Shown here piece after piece: positions 2,629-8,967 of a stretch of 64,000 nucleotides of DNA. How positions within the stretch are numbered: the first letter of the stretch is position 1; each line of letters starts with the position of its first letter. A program made the position numbers and the translations under genes. The notes below the pieces were generated by a model. That model was not told the DNA's origin. It saw only the letters and a program-made list of their open reading frames with translations, and searched no databases. The DNA is from Alphaproteobacteria bacterium (GTDB lineage: Bacteria; Pseudomonadota; Alphaproteobacteria; UBA9219; RFNS01): the NCBI GenBank assembly GCA_037200005.1, contig JBBCGY010000002.1, forward strand, positions 62,001 to 126,000, given 5' to 3'.

Positions 2629-4440
2629 ATGACGCATATTGAAAATATGCTTCAGCAAACCCCGGCGGAACCTATCGTCGCTCCAGTCTCCTTTCTCTCC
2701 GTCACGCAATCCCTGACCGGCCGGATGTGGCAGGCGCGGGCTTGCGACGAGCGCATCGCCGAAGCCCTGGCGCAGCGTTTTACGCTGCCGGATATTCTGG
2801 CTCGCGCGATGGCGGTGCGCGGCATCACGCTCGAAACCGCCGCCGATTATCTCGATCCGACCTTGCGCCTGCTGATGCCCGACCCGTCGTCCTTTAAGGA
2901 CATGGACAAAGCGGCAGCGCGATTGGTTGCCGCGATTACGGCGCAGGAATCCATCACGATTTTCGGCGATTACGATGTCGATGGTGGAACCTCCACGGCG
3001 CTTCTGGTTCGGTTTTTGCGCGCCTGCGGCGCCGCGCCGCAGCTTTATATTCCGGACAGGACGGCGGAAGGTTATGGGCCGAATGCCGCCGCCATGGAGC
3101 GCATCGCGGCCAGCAGCGCGAAGCTGGTGGATCTGCGTCGATTGCGGCACGACTGCGCACGAGCCGCTGGCCCGCGCGCGCGATCTTGGCCTTGATGTCA
3201 TCGTGCTGGATCATCATGCGGCGGAACCGGTTTTGCCGCCGGTTCTCGCGCTGGTCAATCCGAACCGCATCGACGAAGGCGATGGATACCGGAATCTTGC
3301 CGCTATCGGCGTGACGTTTCTTTTCGTCGCCGCCGTGAATCGCGCGCTGCGCGGCGGCGGATTTTATAGTGATGAGCGCAAAGAGCCCGATTTGATGCAA
3401 TGGCTCGATCTGGTGGCGCTCGGCACCGTGGCCGATATCGTGCCGCTCACGGGGCTTAACCGCGCCTATGTCGCGCAGGGCTTGCGCGTGATGGCGCGAT
3501 CCGGCAATGCGGGGTTGCTGGCGCTGATGAAAGCCGGGCGCGCGAGCATGCCGCCGGATACCTTCACGGCGGGATTCATTCTCGGCCCGCGCGTCAATGC
3601 GGGCGGGCGCGTCGGCAAATCCAATCTCGGCGCGCGGCTGCTGTCCTGCGACGATCCCCTGGAGGCCGAGGCGCTGGCGATTCATCTCGACCAGCTGAAC
3701 GCCAGCGCAAGGATATCGAAGTCGACGTTCTGGCCGCGGCGGAATATCAGATTCAGCAGAATGACGGCATGCCGCTTTTGTTCGCGGCGGGCGAGGGCTG
3801 GCATCCTGGAGTCATCGGCATCGTCGCGGCGCGGCTTAAGGAGCGCTATCACCGCCCGGCCATCGTCGTCGCGCTCGACGGCGGCATCGGCAAGGGATCG
3901 GGCCGCTCGGTGCGCGGCCTCGATCTCGGCGCGATGGTGATCGCGGCGCGGCAGTCCGGATTGCTCGTCAATGGCGGCGGCCACGCGATGGCGGCGGGAC
4001 TGACCGTCGCGCAGGACAAAATTCCGGAATTGCGCGCTTTCCTCACCGCCCGCGTGGAGAAATTCCTCGAAGCTTCCCCGCTGGTTCCGACATTGATGCT
4101 CGACGGGATGCTGGCGGGCGCGGCGGCGACGCCCGACTTCATCGCGCAGCTCGACCGGCTGAAACCCTTCGGCACCGGCAATCCCGAGCCGCGCTTTGCC
4201 ATTCCGTCATGCCGGATCGTTCGCGCCGATCTGGTGGGCGACAAGCATGTGCGCTGTATTTTGAGCGCGGCAGGCGCGACCGTGAAAGGCATCGCCTTCC
4301 GCGCGCTGGACAATCCGCTCGGCGCGGCGCTGCTCAAGCCGCAAGGCCGCGCGCTGCATCTCGCGGGCTATCTCCGCCGCGACAACTGGAACGGCCAGGA
4401 TAGGGTGCAGTTTCAGATCGAGGACGGGGCTTTCGCTTAA
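2629..4440 (+). pseudogene. recJ: single-stranded-DNA exonuclease RecJ, two frameshifts
   Basis: Three overlapping frames together encode a full RecJ of about 600 residues, the 5'-3' single-strand exonuclease of recombination and repair. Frame one (2629 to about 3130) carries the DHH motif FGDYDVDG. Frame two (about 3132-3700) carries VDCGTTAHEPLA, LDHH, LVNPNRIDEG, ALGTVADIVPL and GPRVNAGGRVG. Frame three (about 3705-4440) carries GWHPGVIGIVAARLK, GSGRSVRGLDLG and GGHAMAAGL. The breaks fit one extra base near 3131-3134 and one missing base near 3706-3710. All catalytic motifs are intact and there are no internal stops, so this is either very recent decay or assembly error. The start may instead be the ATG at 2647. 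Its stop overlaps that of convergent putA. Confidence 0.85.
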
Positions 4441-7400
4441 TCTGCTCCCGCCGCCGCGAGCAGGGTGGCGTTGCCGCCCGCCGCCGTGGTGTTGATCGAG
4501 ACGGTGCGCTCGAGCGCGAAGCGGGGCAGGTAATGCGGCCCGCCCGCTTTGGGACCGGTGCCGGAGATGCCTTCGCCGCCGAAAGGCTGCGTGCCGACGA
4601 CCGCGCCGATGATGCTGCGGTTGACATAGAGATTGCCGACGTGAAGCTCTTCCGCGATTTCGCCGGCGACGGCATCGATGCGGCTATGCACGCCGCCCGT
4701 CAGACCGAAGCCCGTCGCGTTGATCGCGGCGACAAGCTTGGGCAAGTCTTCGGGTTTGTAACGGACGACATGCAGGATCGGGCCGAAAACCTCGTCCGTC
4801 AGGAATGCGACATTGGGGATTTCCCATATCTGCGGGCTGAAGAAGGCGTGATCTATATTCGAACAAACGGGATTCCCGCTCGCCGCTTCGCGGCGTCGGG
4901 AATGACGGAGTTCTTCTGGTAAGGGCAATGTGAATATTTCTTTCGCCTCGGCGCGGAGGCGTTCGACATGTTTCTCCAGCCGCGCGCGCGCGTCATGATC
5001 GATCAGCGGGCCGATATCGGTCTTGAGGGCCGCGGGATCGCCGATGACCAGTTCCTTCATCGCCGGAGGCCAGCGCGGCGATCATGCTGTCCGCCGTCGC
5101 GTGAGGCAGGCAGAGAATGCGGGCGGCGGAGCATCGCTGTCCGGCGGAGCGGAAGGCGCTGGCGATAACATCGTCGATCACCTGTTCGGGCAATGCCGAA
5201 CTGTCGATGATAATCGCGTTCTGTCCGCCGGTCTCGGCAATTAGGGGCACGATAGGGCCGTCTTTAGCGGCCAAGGCGCGGTTGATGCGCCCGCGCCGCC
5301 GCGACCGAACCGGTGAAGGCCACGCCCGCCAGAGCCGGATGCGCGACCAGCGCCGCGCCAATATCGGCTCCGCCCGGCAGCAGTTGCAGAGCGTCGGGCG
5401 GGAATACCCGCTTCATGCGCCAGCCTGACGGCATGAGCCGCCACGCGCGGCGTCTGCGGCGCGGGCTTGGCGATGACGCTGTTTCCGGCGGCGAGCGCGG
5501 GCGGCGACCTGGCCGAGGAAAATCGCCAGTGGAAAATTCCACGGGCTGATGCAGGCGAACACGCCGCGCCCGTGCAGCGTCAGCGTATTCCGTTCGCCGG
5601 TCGGACCGGGGAGGATTTCCGGCGTGAAATCCTGCCGCGCGCGGGCGGCGTAGTAGCGGCAGAAATCCGTCGCCTCGCGCACTTCGGATAGCGCGTCGGG
5701 CAGCGTCTTGCCGCCTTCATCCGCCAGCAAAGCCATGAGCGCGGCGCGGTCGCGTTCCAACAGGCCGGAAAGACGATTGAGCGCGGCGGCGCGTTCCTCC
5801 ACCGGACGGCGATGCCATGTGCCGAACGCGGCTTGCGCGGCGGAGAAAACCTTATCGAGCGGCGGCGCGGCGGGAACAGGCCATTCTTTCTTCCTCGCCT
5901 CTTGCATGGCGGCCAGCAAAGGTTCCGTCACGCCCGGATCGGTGAGATCGAGGCCGGAGGAATTGGCGCGTTCCGGCGCGTATATATATTTCGGCAAGAT
6001 AACGGCGGGATGACGTTTTTGCTCCTTGGCCTTAAGCAAAGCGGCGGGATCGGCAGTCAGATGCGCGATATCGATACGCGGATCGGTAAGCTGGTTGATG
6101 AAGGAACTGTTCGCGCCATTCTCCAGCAATCGCCGCACGAGGTAGCCGAGCAAAACATCATGGCCGCCGACGGGAGAATAAAAGCAGGTGCGATAGCCTT
6201 CGGGCGCGCAGCAGTTCGAAAAGCTCCGTCGCCATGCCGAACAGGCACTGAAATTCTATTTTCTTCGGGTCGGGCGCGAGGCGGCGATGATCGCGGCGAT
6301 GGTCAGCGCGTTATGCGAGCCGAAAACCGGCGTCAGCCATTCACCATGCGCCAGCAACGTCCCTGGCGCAGGCAAGATAGGAAACATCGGTCGTCATCTT
6401 CCGCGTATAGACCGGAAATTCGTCCCAGCCGCGCTCCTGTGCGCGCTTGATCTCGGTATCCCAATAAGCGCCCTTGATCAGCCGCACCACCATGCGCCGC
6501 TGGAATTTTTGCGCGAAATGCGCGGCGGCATCGATGATTGCCGGAGCGCGCTTCTGATAGGCTTGCACAGCGAGTCCGAAACCCGTCCATGCGCCGAGCT
6601 TAGCGGTCTCCAGGGTCTTTTCTATCACGCCGAGCGAAAGCAACAGCCGGTCGGCTTCCTCGGCATCCACGACCATGAAAATGTCATGACGCGCCGAGGC
6701 TTCGGCCAGCGCCACGAGACGCGGCACGAGTTCGGCATAAACCCGTTCCGCCTGCGCCGCTTCATAACGCGGATGCAGGGCCGAAAGCTTGACCGATATT
6801 CCCGACGGCGCATGGCCGGGATAGAGAAGGTTATTCGAGGCCGTCGCGTCGATGGCATTCAAGTATGATTGATAATAACGCTCGGCGTCTTCGGCGGTGC
6901 GCGCGCCTTCGCCCAGCATGTCGTAGGAATAGCGGGTGCGCGCGTCGCTGATCTTATTGGCGCGCATGATCGCCGCGTCGATATCGTGGCCGATCACGAA
7001 CTGATCGCCGAGCCAGCGCATCGCCATGCGGATCGCCTCGCGCACCGCGCCGTGACCGAGCTTGCCCGCGAGCAGGCCGAGCATCGCGCTTGCGCTGCCG
7101 TGGCCGTCCTCATGCGCGCCGGATATCCTGCCGGTGAGATTCAGCGCCCAGCTCGCGGCGCGCAGCGTCCATGGCGTGTCCTGGCCGAGGTGGGCCTCGA
7201 AATCGGCGGCGGTCATTTTGTCGCGGATCAGCGCGTCGGCCGTCGCCGCGTCGGGAATGCGCAGCAGCGCCTCGGCTAGGCACATCAGAGCGATGCCTTC
7301 TTTCGTATCCAGGCTGAAATGGGACAGCATTTCGGCGATGCCGGGCAGGGCCTTTTTGTGGGCGCGGATTTTGCCGATCCAGCTCGCGGCGCGATCCTGC

Positions 7401-7531
7401 GCCTGGCGAAGAAGCTGCGGATCGAACGCCGCTTGCGGCAGCAAATCCGCGACGGCCTGCTCTTCATCGGCGCGGTAAAGCCGGGCAAGCCTGTCTTTCA
7501 ATTCCGGGGGCAGGGCAGGGGAATAGTCCAT
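4437..7531 (-). pseudogene. putA: bifunctional proline dehydrogenase / P5C dehydrogenase PutA, several frameshifts
   Basis: PutA oxidises proline to glutamate. The intact N-terminal part (7531 to about 6360) holds the FAD-dependent proline dehydrogenase barrel with SVKLSALHPRY, VVDAEEADRLL and RLIKGAYWDTEIKRA. The aldehyde dehydrogenase half holds ACISPWNFPLAIF, VAFTGS, the general-base region LIAETGGQNA, the catalytic cysteine in SAGQRCSA, EVFGPILHVVRY and VGTQPFGGEG. Frame changes lie near 6357, 6275, 6208, 5512, 5408, 5290 and 5065. Six are best explained by one extra base, often lengthening a C or G run, and the one near 6275 by one missing base. There are no nonsense substitutions. The restored protein would be about 1,030 residues, usual for PutA without an N-terminal ribbon-helix-helix domain. 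A palindromic repeat adds about 17 in-frame codons at 4862-4908. Confidence 0.88.
4862..4908 (+). repeat. palindromic repeat copy inside putA
   Basis: This 47-bp copy is identical, including its AACAAA flank, to the copy at 8921-8967. The arms ATTCCCG and CGGGAAT enclose an inner stem GCCGC-ttc-GCGGC. On the putA strand it is read without a stop as RHSRRREAASGNPVCSN, inserted between LPLPEE and the HAFFSPQIWEI segment of the aldehyde dehydrogenase domain. The reading frame continues correctly on both sides. Confidence 0.85.
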
Positions 7532-7625: not shown

Positions 7626-8468
7626 ATGCCGGATACGGATTTCAGATACGCAGCAAACTCGCTTTGCGGGCGGGCGGACGCTTTATTGATCCGTCCTTTC
7701 GACGGCTATTCGCGCGCCGTTCCGGAAGCGACGGTGGTTCATGGCTGCAAGGAAGCCGAGGACATAGCGGCGCGCCGCGTCGCCGAGCAAGCCATGCTCG
7801 GCAATACCGGCAAGATTATCTATTTCACCGGCGGGGCAAAATTATGGGGCGGCGGGCTGAAGCAGCTATTGGCCCTATATCTCATTCCCAAAGTCAGCCG
7901 CGCGATGCGCAATAAGCCTCCCAAGAAAAATGCGGTCGAGGCGATGCGCGGCGCGGAAGTCTTTTGCAGCGAACTCATCAAGCTCGGCGGTAATCCTAAC
8001 GATTTCGATATCCGCGTCTCTCCTAAAGGAAAGCATATCAAAGGCAATATCGAGGGCATTCTTGAGCATCCCGAATGGGGATTTGAAAGCCATAAAAGCA
8101 TCGGCTTTATGACTTTGCCGCCGGAATCGCTGCGCGCCATCGGCAGCTTCCATATAGTCTGCCCGAACAGCACGGCTGTCAGCATTCCGATGCCGTTCTG
8201 GCTGGACGAAATCGGCATCGGCAAGCATTTGTATGATCGCGGCGAATTAAGCTGGGTCAATAAGCGCATCGTCGATTGGCAGCTTGAAACCGAATTCAAG
8301 AAAGTCGGACTGCCGAACGCGCAGGAGCCGGACTATTGCAAGAGAGGCTTTTATCTTCCGCCGGACATGGAAAAAGAAATGGCGGCAGCGGCGGAACTGG
8401 CGGCCATTCGGCCCGCCATCCGCAATCCTTACCGGAACTTCTTCGAGGAATTGCGGGCGGCGGCATAG
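7626..8468 (+). CDS. hypothetical protein, possibly DUF218/YdcF-like
   Basis: The protein has about 280 residues and no confident family assignment. Features faintly recall the DUF218 (YdcF/ElyC) fold: an early R-A-D-A-L-L-I strand, a KIIYFTGG strand-glycine turn near residue 65, a helix with AVEAMRGAEVFCSELIKLGG, and a following SFHIVCPNST strand. No signal peptide or membrane segment is evident, so it is probably cytosolic. The ATG at 7626 is chosen; a TTG at 7608 in the same frame is an alternative. It is divergent from putA, and its stop is followed two bases later by an inverted copy of the palindromic repeat. Confidence 0.6.
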   Translation: MPDTDFRYAANSLCGRADALLIRPFDGYSRAVPEATVVHGCKEAEDIAARRVAEQAMLGNTGKIIYFTGGAKLWGGGLKQLLALYLIPKVSRAMRNKPPKKNAVEAMRGAEVFCSELIKLGGNPNDFDIRVSPKGKHIKGNIEGILEHPEWGFESHKSIGFMTLPPESLRAIGSFHIVCPNSTAVSIPMPFWLDEIGIGKHLYDRGELSWVNKRIVDWQLETEFKKVGLPNAQEPDYCKRGFYLPPDMEKEMAAAAELAAIRPAIRNPYRNFFEELRAAA

Positions 8469-8470
8469 AG

Positions 8471-8520
8471 CCGTCATTCCCGACGCCACGCTTTAGCGTG
8501 GCGAGCGGGAATCCCGTTTG
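8471..8520 (-). repeat. palindromic repeat, inverted copy
   Basis: Read on the minus strand, this copy has the same outer arms (CGGGATTCCCG and CGGGAATGACGG) as the other copies. Its inner stem differs: GCCACGC and GCGTGGC around a four-base loop. The change keeps the pairing, so the hairpin rather than the exact sequence appears to be conserved. The T-rich sequence just after it (8517-8527) could let it act as a terminator for the upstream gene. Confidence 0.8.
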
Positions 8521-8536
8521 GTTTTTCTAAAAAATA

Positions 8537-8585
8537 AAACGGGATTCCCGTTCGTCCGGCTTCGTCGGCCGCCGGGAATGACGGC
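8537..8585 (+). repeat. palindromic repeat, direct copy
   Basis: The outer arms CGGGATTCCCG and CGGGAATGACGG are conserved, while the inner part (TTCGTCCGGCTTCGTCGGCCGC) is a different palindrome centred on CCG-gcttcgt-CGG. It forms a head-to-head pair with the copy at 8471-8520 and lies 36 bp before the GIY-YIG gene. Confidence 0.8.
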
Positions 8586-8620
8586 TTTTCTTGCAGGCCG
8601 TATTCTCTTAGACTGCAATC

Positions 8621-8917
8621 ATGAGAAGCGAGAAACGGTTTTACATATACATTGTCACGGACAAACCATACGGCACCCTTTATATCGGTGTTACATCCGA
8701 TTTAGCGCGTCGTATTTATGAGCACAAAGCTGGTTTATATAAAGGATTCAGCAAAACATACGGGCTTAAGCAACTTGTCTATCATGAAGTGCAAGAAACC
8801 GCCGAGGCCGCGTTTCAGCGCGAAACTTCCCTCAAGCGTTGGAGGCGCGATTGGAAGAAGCAATTGATCGAAAGCGTAAATCCGACTTGGCGGGATTTGT
8901 ATAATGAGTTGGCATAA
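8621..8917 (+). CDS. GIY-YIG nuclease family protein
   Basis: This 98-residue protein is a stand-alone GIY-YIG domain of the UvrC N-terminal type. The family motifs are visible: YIYIV at residues 8-12, YIGVT at 21-25, the helix with LARRIYEHK (catalytic Arg), a VYHEVQ segment, and the KRWRRDWK basic helix with a downstream Asn. Such proteins probably cleave or nick DNA, but the biological substrate of this small class is not established. No strong ribosome site is seen before the ATG. The gene is bracketed by palindromic repeats at 8471-8520, 8537-8585 and 8921-8967, and is convergent with topA. Confidence 0.88.
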   Translation: MRSEKRFYIYIVTDKPYGTLYIGVTSDLARRIYEHKAGLYKGFSKTYGLKQLVYHEVQETAEAAFQRETSLKRWRRDWKKQLIESVNPTWRDLYNELA

Positions 8918-8920
8918 TTA

Positions 8921-8967
8921 AACAAACGGGATTCCCGCTCGCCGCTTCGCGGCGTCGGGAATGACGG
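8921..8967 (+). repeat. palindromic repeat, direct copy before topA stop
   Basis: The copy is identical over 47 bp to the copy inside putA. It fills the gap between the convergent GIY-YIG and topA genes, starting four bases after the GIY-YIG stop and ending three bases before the topA stop. The hairpin followed by CTTTTATTTCTT could serve as a terminator for the upstream gene. Confidence 0.85.

Follow-up and report, generated by a model that had tools for sequence, protein, structure and literature searches.

CGTC REPs (Di Nocera et al. 2013, PMC3733652), among them dRS3 of Neisseria and RPE-4 and RPE-6 of Rickettsia, have been described with an 8-9 bp stem, a 4-5 nt loop and a CCA-like tail. 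Their hosts include alphaproteobacteria such as Micavibrio and Bradyrhizobium, and they were stated to have no dedicated transposase (PMC3733652). In this study, we analysed a locus in which such repeats surround a small GIY-YIG nuclease gene, within a window (the whole stretch of alphaproteobacterial DNA that was analysed, 64,000 nucleotides). The likeness to CGTC REPs lies in the CGTC/TGTC tag, the AT-starting stem and the head-to-head dimers. The link with a GIY-YIG gene is new, and the stems in the window are longer and interrupted, with the tail CCCGTTT.

The RAYT/REP system (REPtron, REPIN) is similar in its nuclease gene flanked by tagged palindromes, in its dispersed head-to-head offspring and in its enzyme-repeat specificity, although binding and cleavage of its own hairpin by the GIY-YIG protein are only inferred. 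RAYT/REP has an HUH tyrosine transposase and a GTAG tag, whereas the system in the window has a GIY-YIG hydrolase and a CGTC tag; because the enzyme is a hydrolase and not an HUH transposase, strand joining would fall to other proteins. The protein itself resembles the non-eukaryotic Slx1 group (Dunin-Horkawicz et al. 2006, PMC1564403) in its single domain, motif residues and UPF0213/Slx1-like fold; no flanking repeats were described for that group in the relevant sections of PMC1564403, which did not settle the question of molecular parasites among other GIY-YIG members. GIY-YIG homing endonucleases of the I-TevI type share the catalytic domain and possibly a mobility based on break repair, but units of the window type have no intron and no NUMOD, carry terminal palindromes and occupy unrelated sites. 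Terminal inverted repeats and internally deleted derivatives recall a MITE and its parent transposon; unlike these, the unit has no DDE transposase, shows no target-site duplication in the pairs described below, and has ends that are each a hairpin. No report linking GIY-YIG to REPs, RAYT, dRS3 or RPE was found in the open-licence literature searched, and within that literature a REP-plus-enzyme arrangement with this class of enzyme is new.

The unit in the window and its repeats

Two convergent genes adjoin the unit, which takes up nearly all of the gap between their stop codons (Table 1). The original prediction was three repeat copies around a 98-aa GIY-YIG gene, with constant outer arms and inner stems that differ but still pair. 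Both claims held, and the quoted stems (GCCACGC/GCGTGGC, CCG/CGG and GCCGC/GCGGC) were verified in the three copies. We refine it in that the upstream pair is one inverted dimer in the 5' part of the unit, and that the unit fills the gap.

Table 1. Features of the window (positions count from its first letter)
Feature	Position	Strand	Remark
Whole unit, 495 bp, left CGTC tag to right GACG	8472..8966	+	Stop codons of the adjoining genes at 8468 and 8971; ends set by comparison with paralogous units of relatives
Left repeat, type A: CGTCATTCCCG-ACGCCACGCTTTAGCGTGGCGAG-CGGGAATCCCGTTT	8472..8519	+	CGTC tag at 8472
Second repeat, type B, head-to-head with the first	8537..8583	-	CGTC tag ends at 8583
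GIY-YIG nuclease gene, 98 aa, intact	8621..8917	+	Pfam GIY-YIG match
Right repeat, type A, inverted relative to the left repeat	8924..8966	-	CGTC tag ends at 8966
Lone type A repeat within a PutA-like reading frame, in-frame read-through (RHSRRREAASGNPVCSNID)	4867..4907	-	Elsewhere in the window

The lone repeat read in frame within the PutA-like frame shows the same habit as the Rickettsia RPEs. The PutA-like gene (4437-7531) is itself broken across several frames, and nuoF of the same genome (locus L276) has an in-frame TGA; either may reflect assembly indels or a pseudogene.

The outer-arm motif ACGGGATTCCCG had 5 matches against 0.62 expected, and CGGGAATGACG had 10 against 2.28; none of 100 shuffles reached 5 or 10, respectively. 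Searching the 2.36 Mb genome of the window by outer arms alone gave 18 strict copies, and the reversed-pattern control gave 0. Nearly all inner segments of the copies found in this way pair despite differing in sequence (GCCGC/GCGGC, GCCCC/GGGGC, GCTGC/GCAGC, ACCGC/GCGGT and CGACCGGC/GCCGGTCG). Because pairing of the inner segment was not demanded when the 18 copies were chosen, these variable stems are unbiased evidence of covariation, and the covariation argument of the original prediction held, mostly on genome sequence outside the stretch on which it was made. Covariation counts on another alignment (A2) were set aside, as its rows had been picked by required pairing and were 100% paired by construction.

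Of 10 copies read outside the window, 9 have an inverted partner nearby, usually of the other type (A + B), which makes them inverted dimers. The family in this genome thus consists mostly of head-to-head dimers in many copies, as in CGTC REPs. The CGTC/TGTC tag is unpaired at one end in the window copies and in nearly all copies listed from 67 loci, a list that was picked by a GTC start. Most copies of relatives have the 8-9 bp AT-starting stem, the 4-5 nt loop and the CCA tail, whereas the window copies have a 7-bp outer arm followed by the inner stem.

The 98-aa ORF matched Pfam GIY-YIG with 52.2 bits (cut-off 22.6). This was the only domain found by Pfam, which gave no NUMOD DNA-binding domain. 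The motif residues Y10, Y21, R31, E68 and N87 are invariant or nearly so in 30 homologues. The AlphaFold2 model had a pLDDT of 89.9, and Foldseek against solved structures gave 1zg2 as the best hit, followed by Slx1 structures, with only 1zg2 at E < 0.001; the nearest solved folds are therefore UPF0213 and the branched-DNA nuclease Slx1. On the basis of Pfam, motif residues and Foldseek, we consider the protein a Slx1-like GIY-YIG nuclease of the Slx1/UPF0213 type; binding and cleavage of the hairpin are inferred, without biochemistry. The single-domain ORF sits between two genes without an intron or intein, which is not the setting of a homing endonuclease, and the genome has one homologue of the gene and no more. 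Among Bradyrhizobium alleles, a dN/dS of 0.064 indicates purifying selection; such a low value is also compatible with a host function.

Repeat pairs around GIY-YIG genes across bacteria

We compared 300 bp upstream of each gene with the reverse complement of 300 bp downstream (score of at least 16) in 79 homologous loci from several phyla, the homologues having been selected on protein similarity alone. A matching inverted repeat pair brackets 63 of the 79 GIY-YIG genes and 9 of the 659 other ORFs of those loci. Most of the repeats around GIY-YIG genes are CGTC REPs; their tags point outward, and they usually lie 0-60 bp from the gene. Among close relatives, 18/30 GIY-YIG genes are bracketed at score 16 and 21/30 at score 14, against 0/29 ParE toxin genes. 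DUF559 nuclease genes are also bracketed (17/22), but by a distinct palindrome of the CCCTCTCCC type. CGTC REPs lie beside 66/79 GIY-YIG genes, 0/22 DUF559 genes and 0/29 ParE genes, so this pairing is specific to the GIY-YIG family. These results show that the locus is a local case of a broad pattern; the lack of a GIY-YIG/repeat link beyond the locus, named beforehand as the outcome that would refute the idea, was not borne out. DUF559 with its own palindromes possibly forms a parallel system with an unrelated nuclease.

The left and right repeats of one gene also belong together. In genome G010, 7 of 8 GIY-YIG genes have a private repeat pair, with a mean own-pair score of 31.9 against 10.3 between genes, and most other multi-copy genomes show the same trend. 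Since own-pair scores exceed between-gene scores, the two repeats change jointly. Both the association and the private pairing are direct results of these comparisons. A protein-repeat Mantel correlation (rho 0.39, 0/2000) was not used as proof, being confounded by host phylogeny. In a Neisseria gonorrhoeae record listed as a plasmid (L262), a GIY-YIG homologue was seen between dRS3-type (CGTC-1) repeats, and in genomes G014 and G026 (L237, L260) a single nuo operon contains two or three GIY-YIG genes or remnants that are separate from one another.

The number of repeats in whole genomes follows the gene. The median number of matches to the covariance model of the repeat was 51.5 for the 34 gene-bearing genomes, as against 1 for the 25 gene-less ones (p=9e-8), and the link remained within the order (p=0.004); at most 123 candidates were scored per genome, so high counts are lower bounds. 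RAYT presence had no significant effect on repeat number (p=0.12). The genome of the window has no match to RAYT (Y1 HUH transposase, PF01797), which is lacking in many repeat-rich relatives too. Five genomes (G019, G024, G018, G007 and G051) have 14 to 91 repeat matches and no intact GIY-YIG gene; in G019, with 91, no GIY-YIG gene was found. They could have lost the gene, or a different enzyme could move their repeats in trans. G047 has GIY-YIG genes and zero repeat matches.

Unit ends, sites and turnover

Four genomes carry two diverged units each, 69-83% identical, at unrelated sites with differing flanks. The right limit of homology between the paralogous units coincides with the tag in 4/4 pairs, and the left limit does so in 3/4 (L229/L230, L258/L259 and L239/L240); in L235/L236 it lies about 17 bases outside the tag. 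These pairs show that a unit with defined ends is present at unrelated sites. No target-site duplication is visible in the four diverged intragenomic pairs. Because the paralogous units are just 69-83% identical, their moves must be old or have come via horizontal transfer.

Deletion derivatives and presence/absence differences were observed directly. Internally deleted units, with both repeats kept but little of the gene left, were seen in Bradyrhizobium (L377, L414) and Sinorhizobium (L263), and the left breakpoint in L414 lies inside the loop of the left repeat. Within the order to which the window's genome belongs, 4 genomes have a unit between nuoF and nuoG, and the two genes abut (-8 to +4 bp) in 10 or more; three of these abutting sites come from species whose genus also includes two filled ones. 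Empty sites in relatives, which had been called for beforehand, thus exist. An attempt to use polymorphism on Sinorhizobium plasmids was uninformative, the repeats being too rare on these plasmids, and no related plasmid carrying the site of the CIAT894 plasmid was found. As a side observation, Sinorhizobium K101 (L267, about 2392-2482) has a collapsed palindrome in which the outer halves of two repeats meet, as if both had been cut in their loops and the ends joined; at this site, S. meliloti Ak57 carries a complete unit as well as a gene remnant between repeats.

Four alternative palindrome systems occupy the dnaN-recF gap (L301, L331-L420) among 89 Bradyrhizobium species: REP-GIY-REP in 17, CGTC repeats without the gene in 26 (some degenerate), DUF559 with CCCTC repeats in 36 and GTAG-type repeats in 10. 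The 36 DUF559/CCCTC rows were assigned by repeat type, and the DUF559 frame was read in six. On the tree of the flanking genes, there were 36 changes of occupant over the 89 rows. Since the adjacent intergenic sequence switches together with the occupant type, the route was likely homologous recombination; this is turnover and no proof of transposition. No bare site was found in the 89 species, and no exact insertion point can be given.

Proposed mechanism and rival explanations

We believe that the locus is likely a unit resembling a transposon, in which a structure-selective nuclease acts on the hairpins and from which CGTC REPs descend as non-autonomous offspring; cleavage of the hairpin and movement driven by the enzyme are inferred, and no biochemistry supports them. 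In this view, the window would hold one copy, made up of a CGTC palindrome, a small Slx1-like GIY-YIG gene and an inverted CGTC palindrome, which would move as a block bounded by the CGTC tags. The palindrome would form an extruded hairpin, either in single-stranded DNA or in a cruciform; the nuclease would recognise the foot of this hairpin and place a nick at the unpaired CGTC tag or directly beside it; and host replication and break repair would copy the unit into another site. The host must do the joining because GIY-YIG hydrolyses DNA and cannot rejoin strands like an HUH transposase; to our knowledge, no GIY-YIG enzyme is known to act as a transposase or to have strand-transfer chemistry. 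This last point speaks against the reading, as do the missing target-site duplication in the four pairs, the age or horizontal origin of the moves, the genomes in which gene and repeats do not go together, the low dN/dS and the probable recombination at dnaN-recF. Loss of the gene would leave repeat dimers and single repeats, which would be the known CGTC REPs, and these gene-less REPs would multiply in trans and be homogenised with the unit. The idea of a RAYT/REP-like system with a different class of nuclease, proposed from sequence alone, is supported to this extent, and cutting or moving of hairpins by the enzyme remains unproved. In evolved Legionella, 11 flanks of GIY-YIG genes were hotspots of mutation and rearrangement, and 44% of long-range junctions had both ends near a reported hotspot (PMC12308824); this lends outside support to the mechanism, with variants that were not confirmed by the authors.

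A homing-type nuclease is a possible alternative. It would cut repeat alleles that lack the gene, and repair would copy the gene in, which makes the repeats the target and not the offspring; here, too, cutting is inferred. At dnaN-recF, gene-bearing and repeat-only alleles with common repeat ends alternate at one position in the 89 Bradyrhizobium species, genes between head-to-head repeats look like a gene inserted into a dimer, and GIY-YIG enzymes include homing nucleases (PMC1564403). However, homing requires homologous flanks and the units occupy unrelated sites, the paralogous units of one genome have private, jointly changed repeats and no common target, and Pfam finds the GIY-YIG domain alone, without NUMOD. 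We regard a host gene as unlikely. According to this explanation, a domesticated structure-selective nuclease trims the cruciforms of repeats, and the flanking repeats serve regulation (terminator or autoregulation). Strong purifying selection and the Slx1-like fold favour it, and many REPs are found downstream of a gene, where they may function as hairpins in RNA (PMC3733652), but the patchy presence of the gene, its differing sites and its multiple diverged copies per genome speak against it, and regulation leaves the matching, gene-private repeat pairs unexplained.

The remaining two explanations are very unlikely. A RAYT (HUH transposase) could be the mover with GIY-YIG genes as passengers, since RAYTs are linked to GTAG REPs and Y1 transposases are encoded by some relatives. 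This is disfavoured by the absence of PF01797 matches from the window's genome and from many repeat-rich relatives, by repeat numbers with no significant dependence on RAYT presence, and by the 2013 survey, in which CGTC repeats did not flank any tyrosine transposase gene (PMC3733652). Coincidence would mean that repeats and small mobile genes both gather in permissive gaps; both are indeed intergenic, and the dnaN-recF gap houses several kinds of element. The controls refute it: none of the 29 ParE genes is bracketed, and the palindrome at DUF559 genes in the same genomes is of another kind, with no CGTC repeat beside them. The unit ends and the private pairing also contradict it.

If the transposon-like reading is true, REP-type spread has evolved with a chemistry far from that of HUH transposases. 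The GIY-YIG enzyme is then the best candidate for the missing mover of CGTC REPs (dRS3 of Neisseria, RPEs of Rickettsia and abundant alphaproteobacterial repeats), a named and testable one, but it is a candidate only, as movement is inferred. The result also bears on the question of PMC1564403 about molecular parasites among GIY-YIG enzymes. The DUF559 parallel hints at a broader principle. In a bolder reading, to which we incline slightly less than to its denial, unrelated small hydrolytic nucleases (GIY-YIG with CGTC, DUF559 of the PD-(D/E)XK class with CCCTCTCCC), none of them with strand transfer, would each maintain and spread their own hairpin via host repair. Were this so, many common orphan palindromes of bacterial genomes would be the offspring of such nucleases.

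A minor observation concerns the genome of the window itself, whose DUF559 gene (G000:C1:306192-306503, L203) belongs among the CCCTCTCCC-type DUF559 loci (L191-L213, L220).
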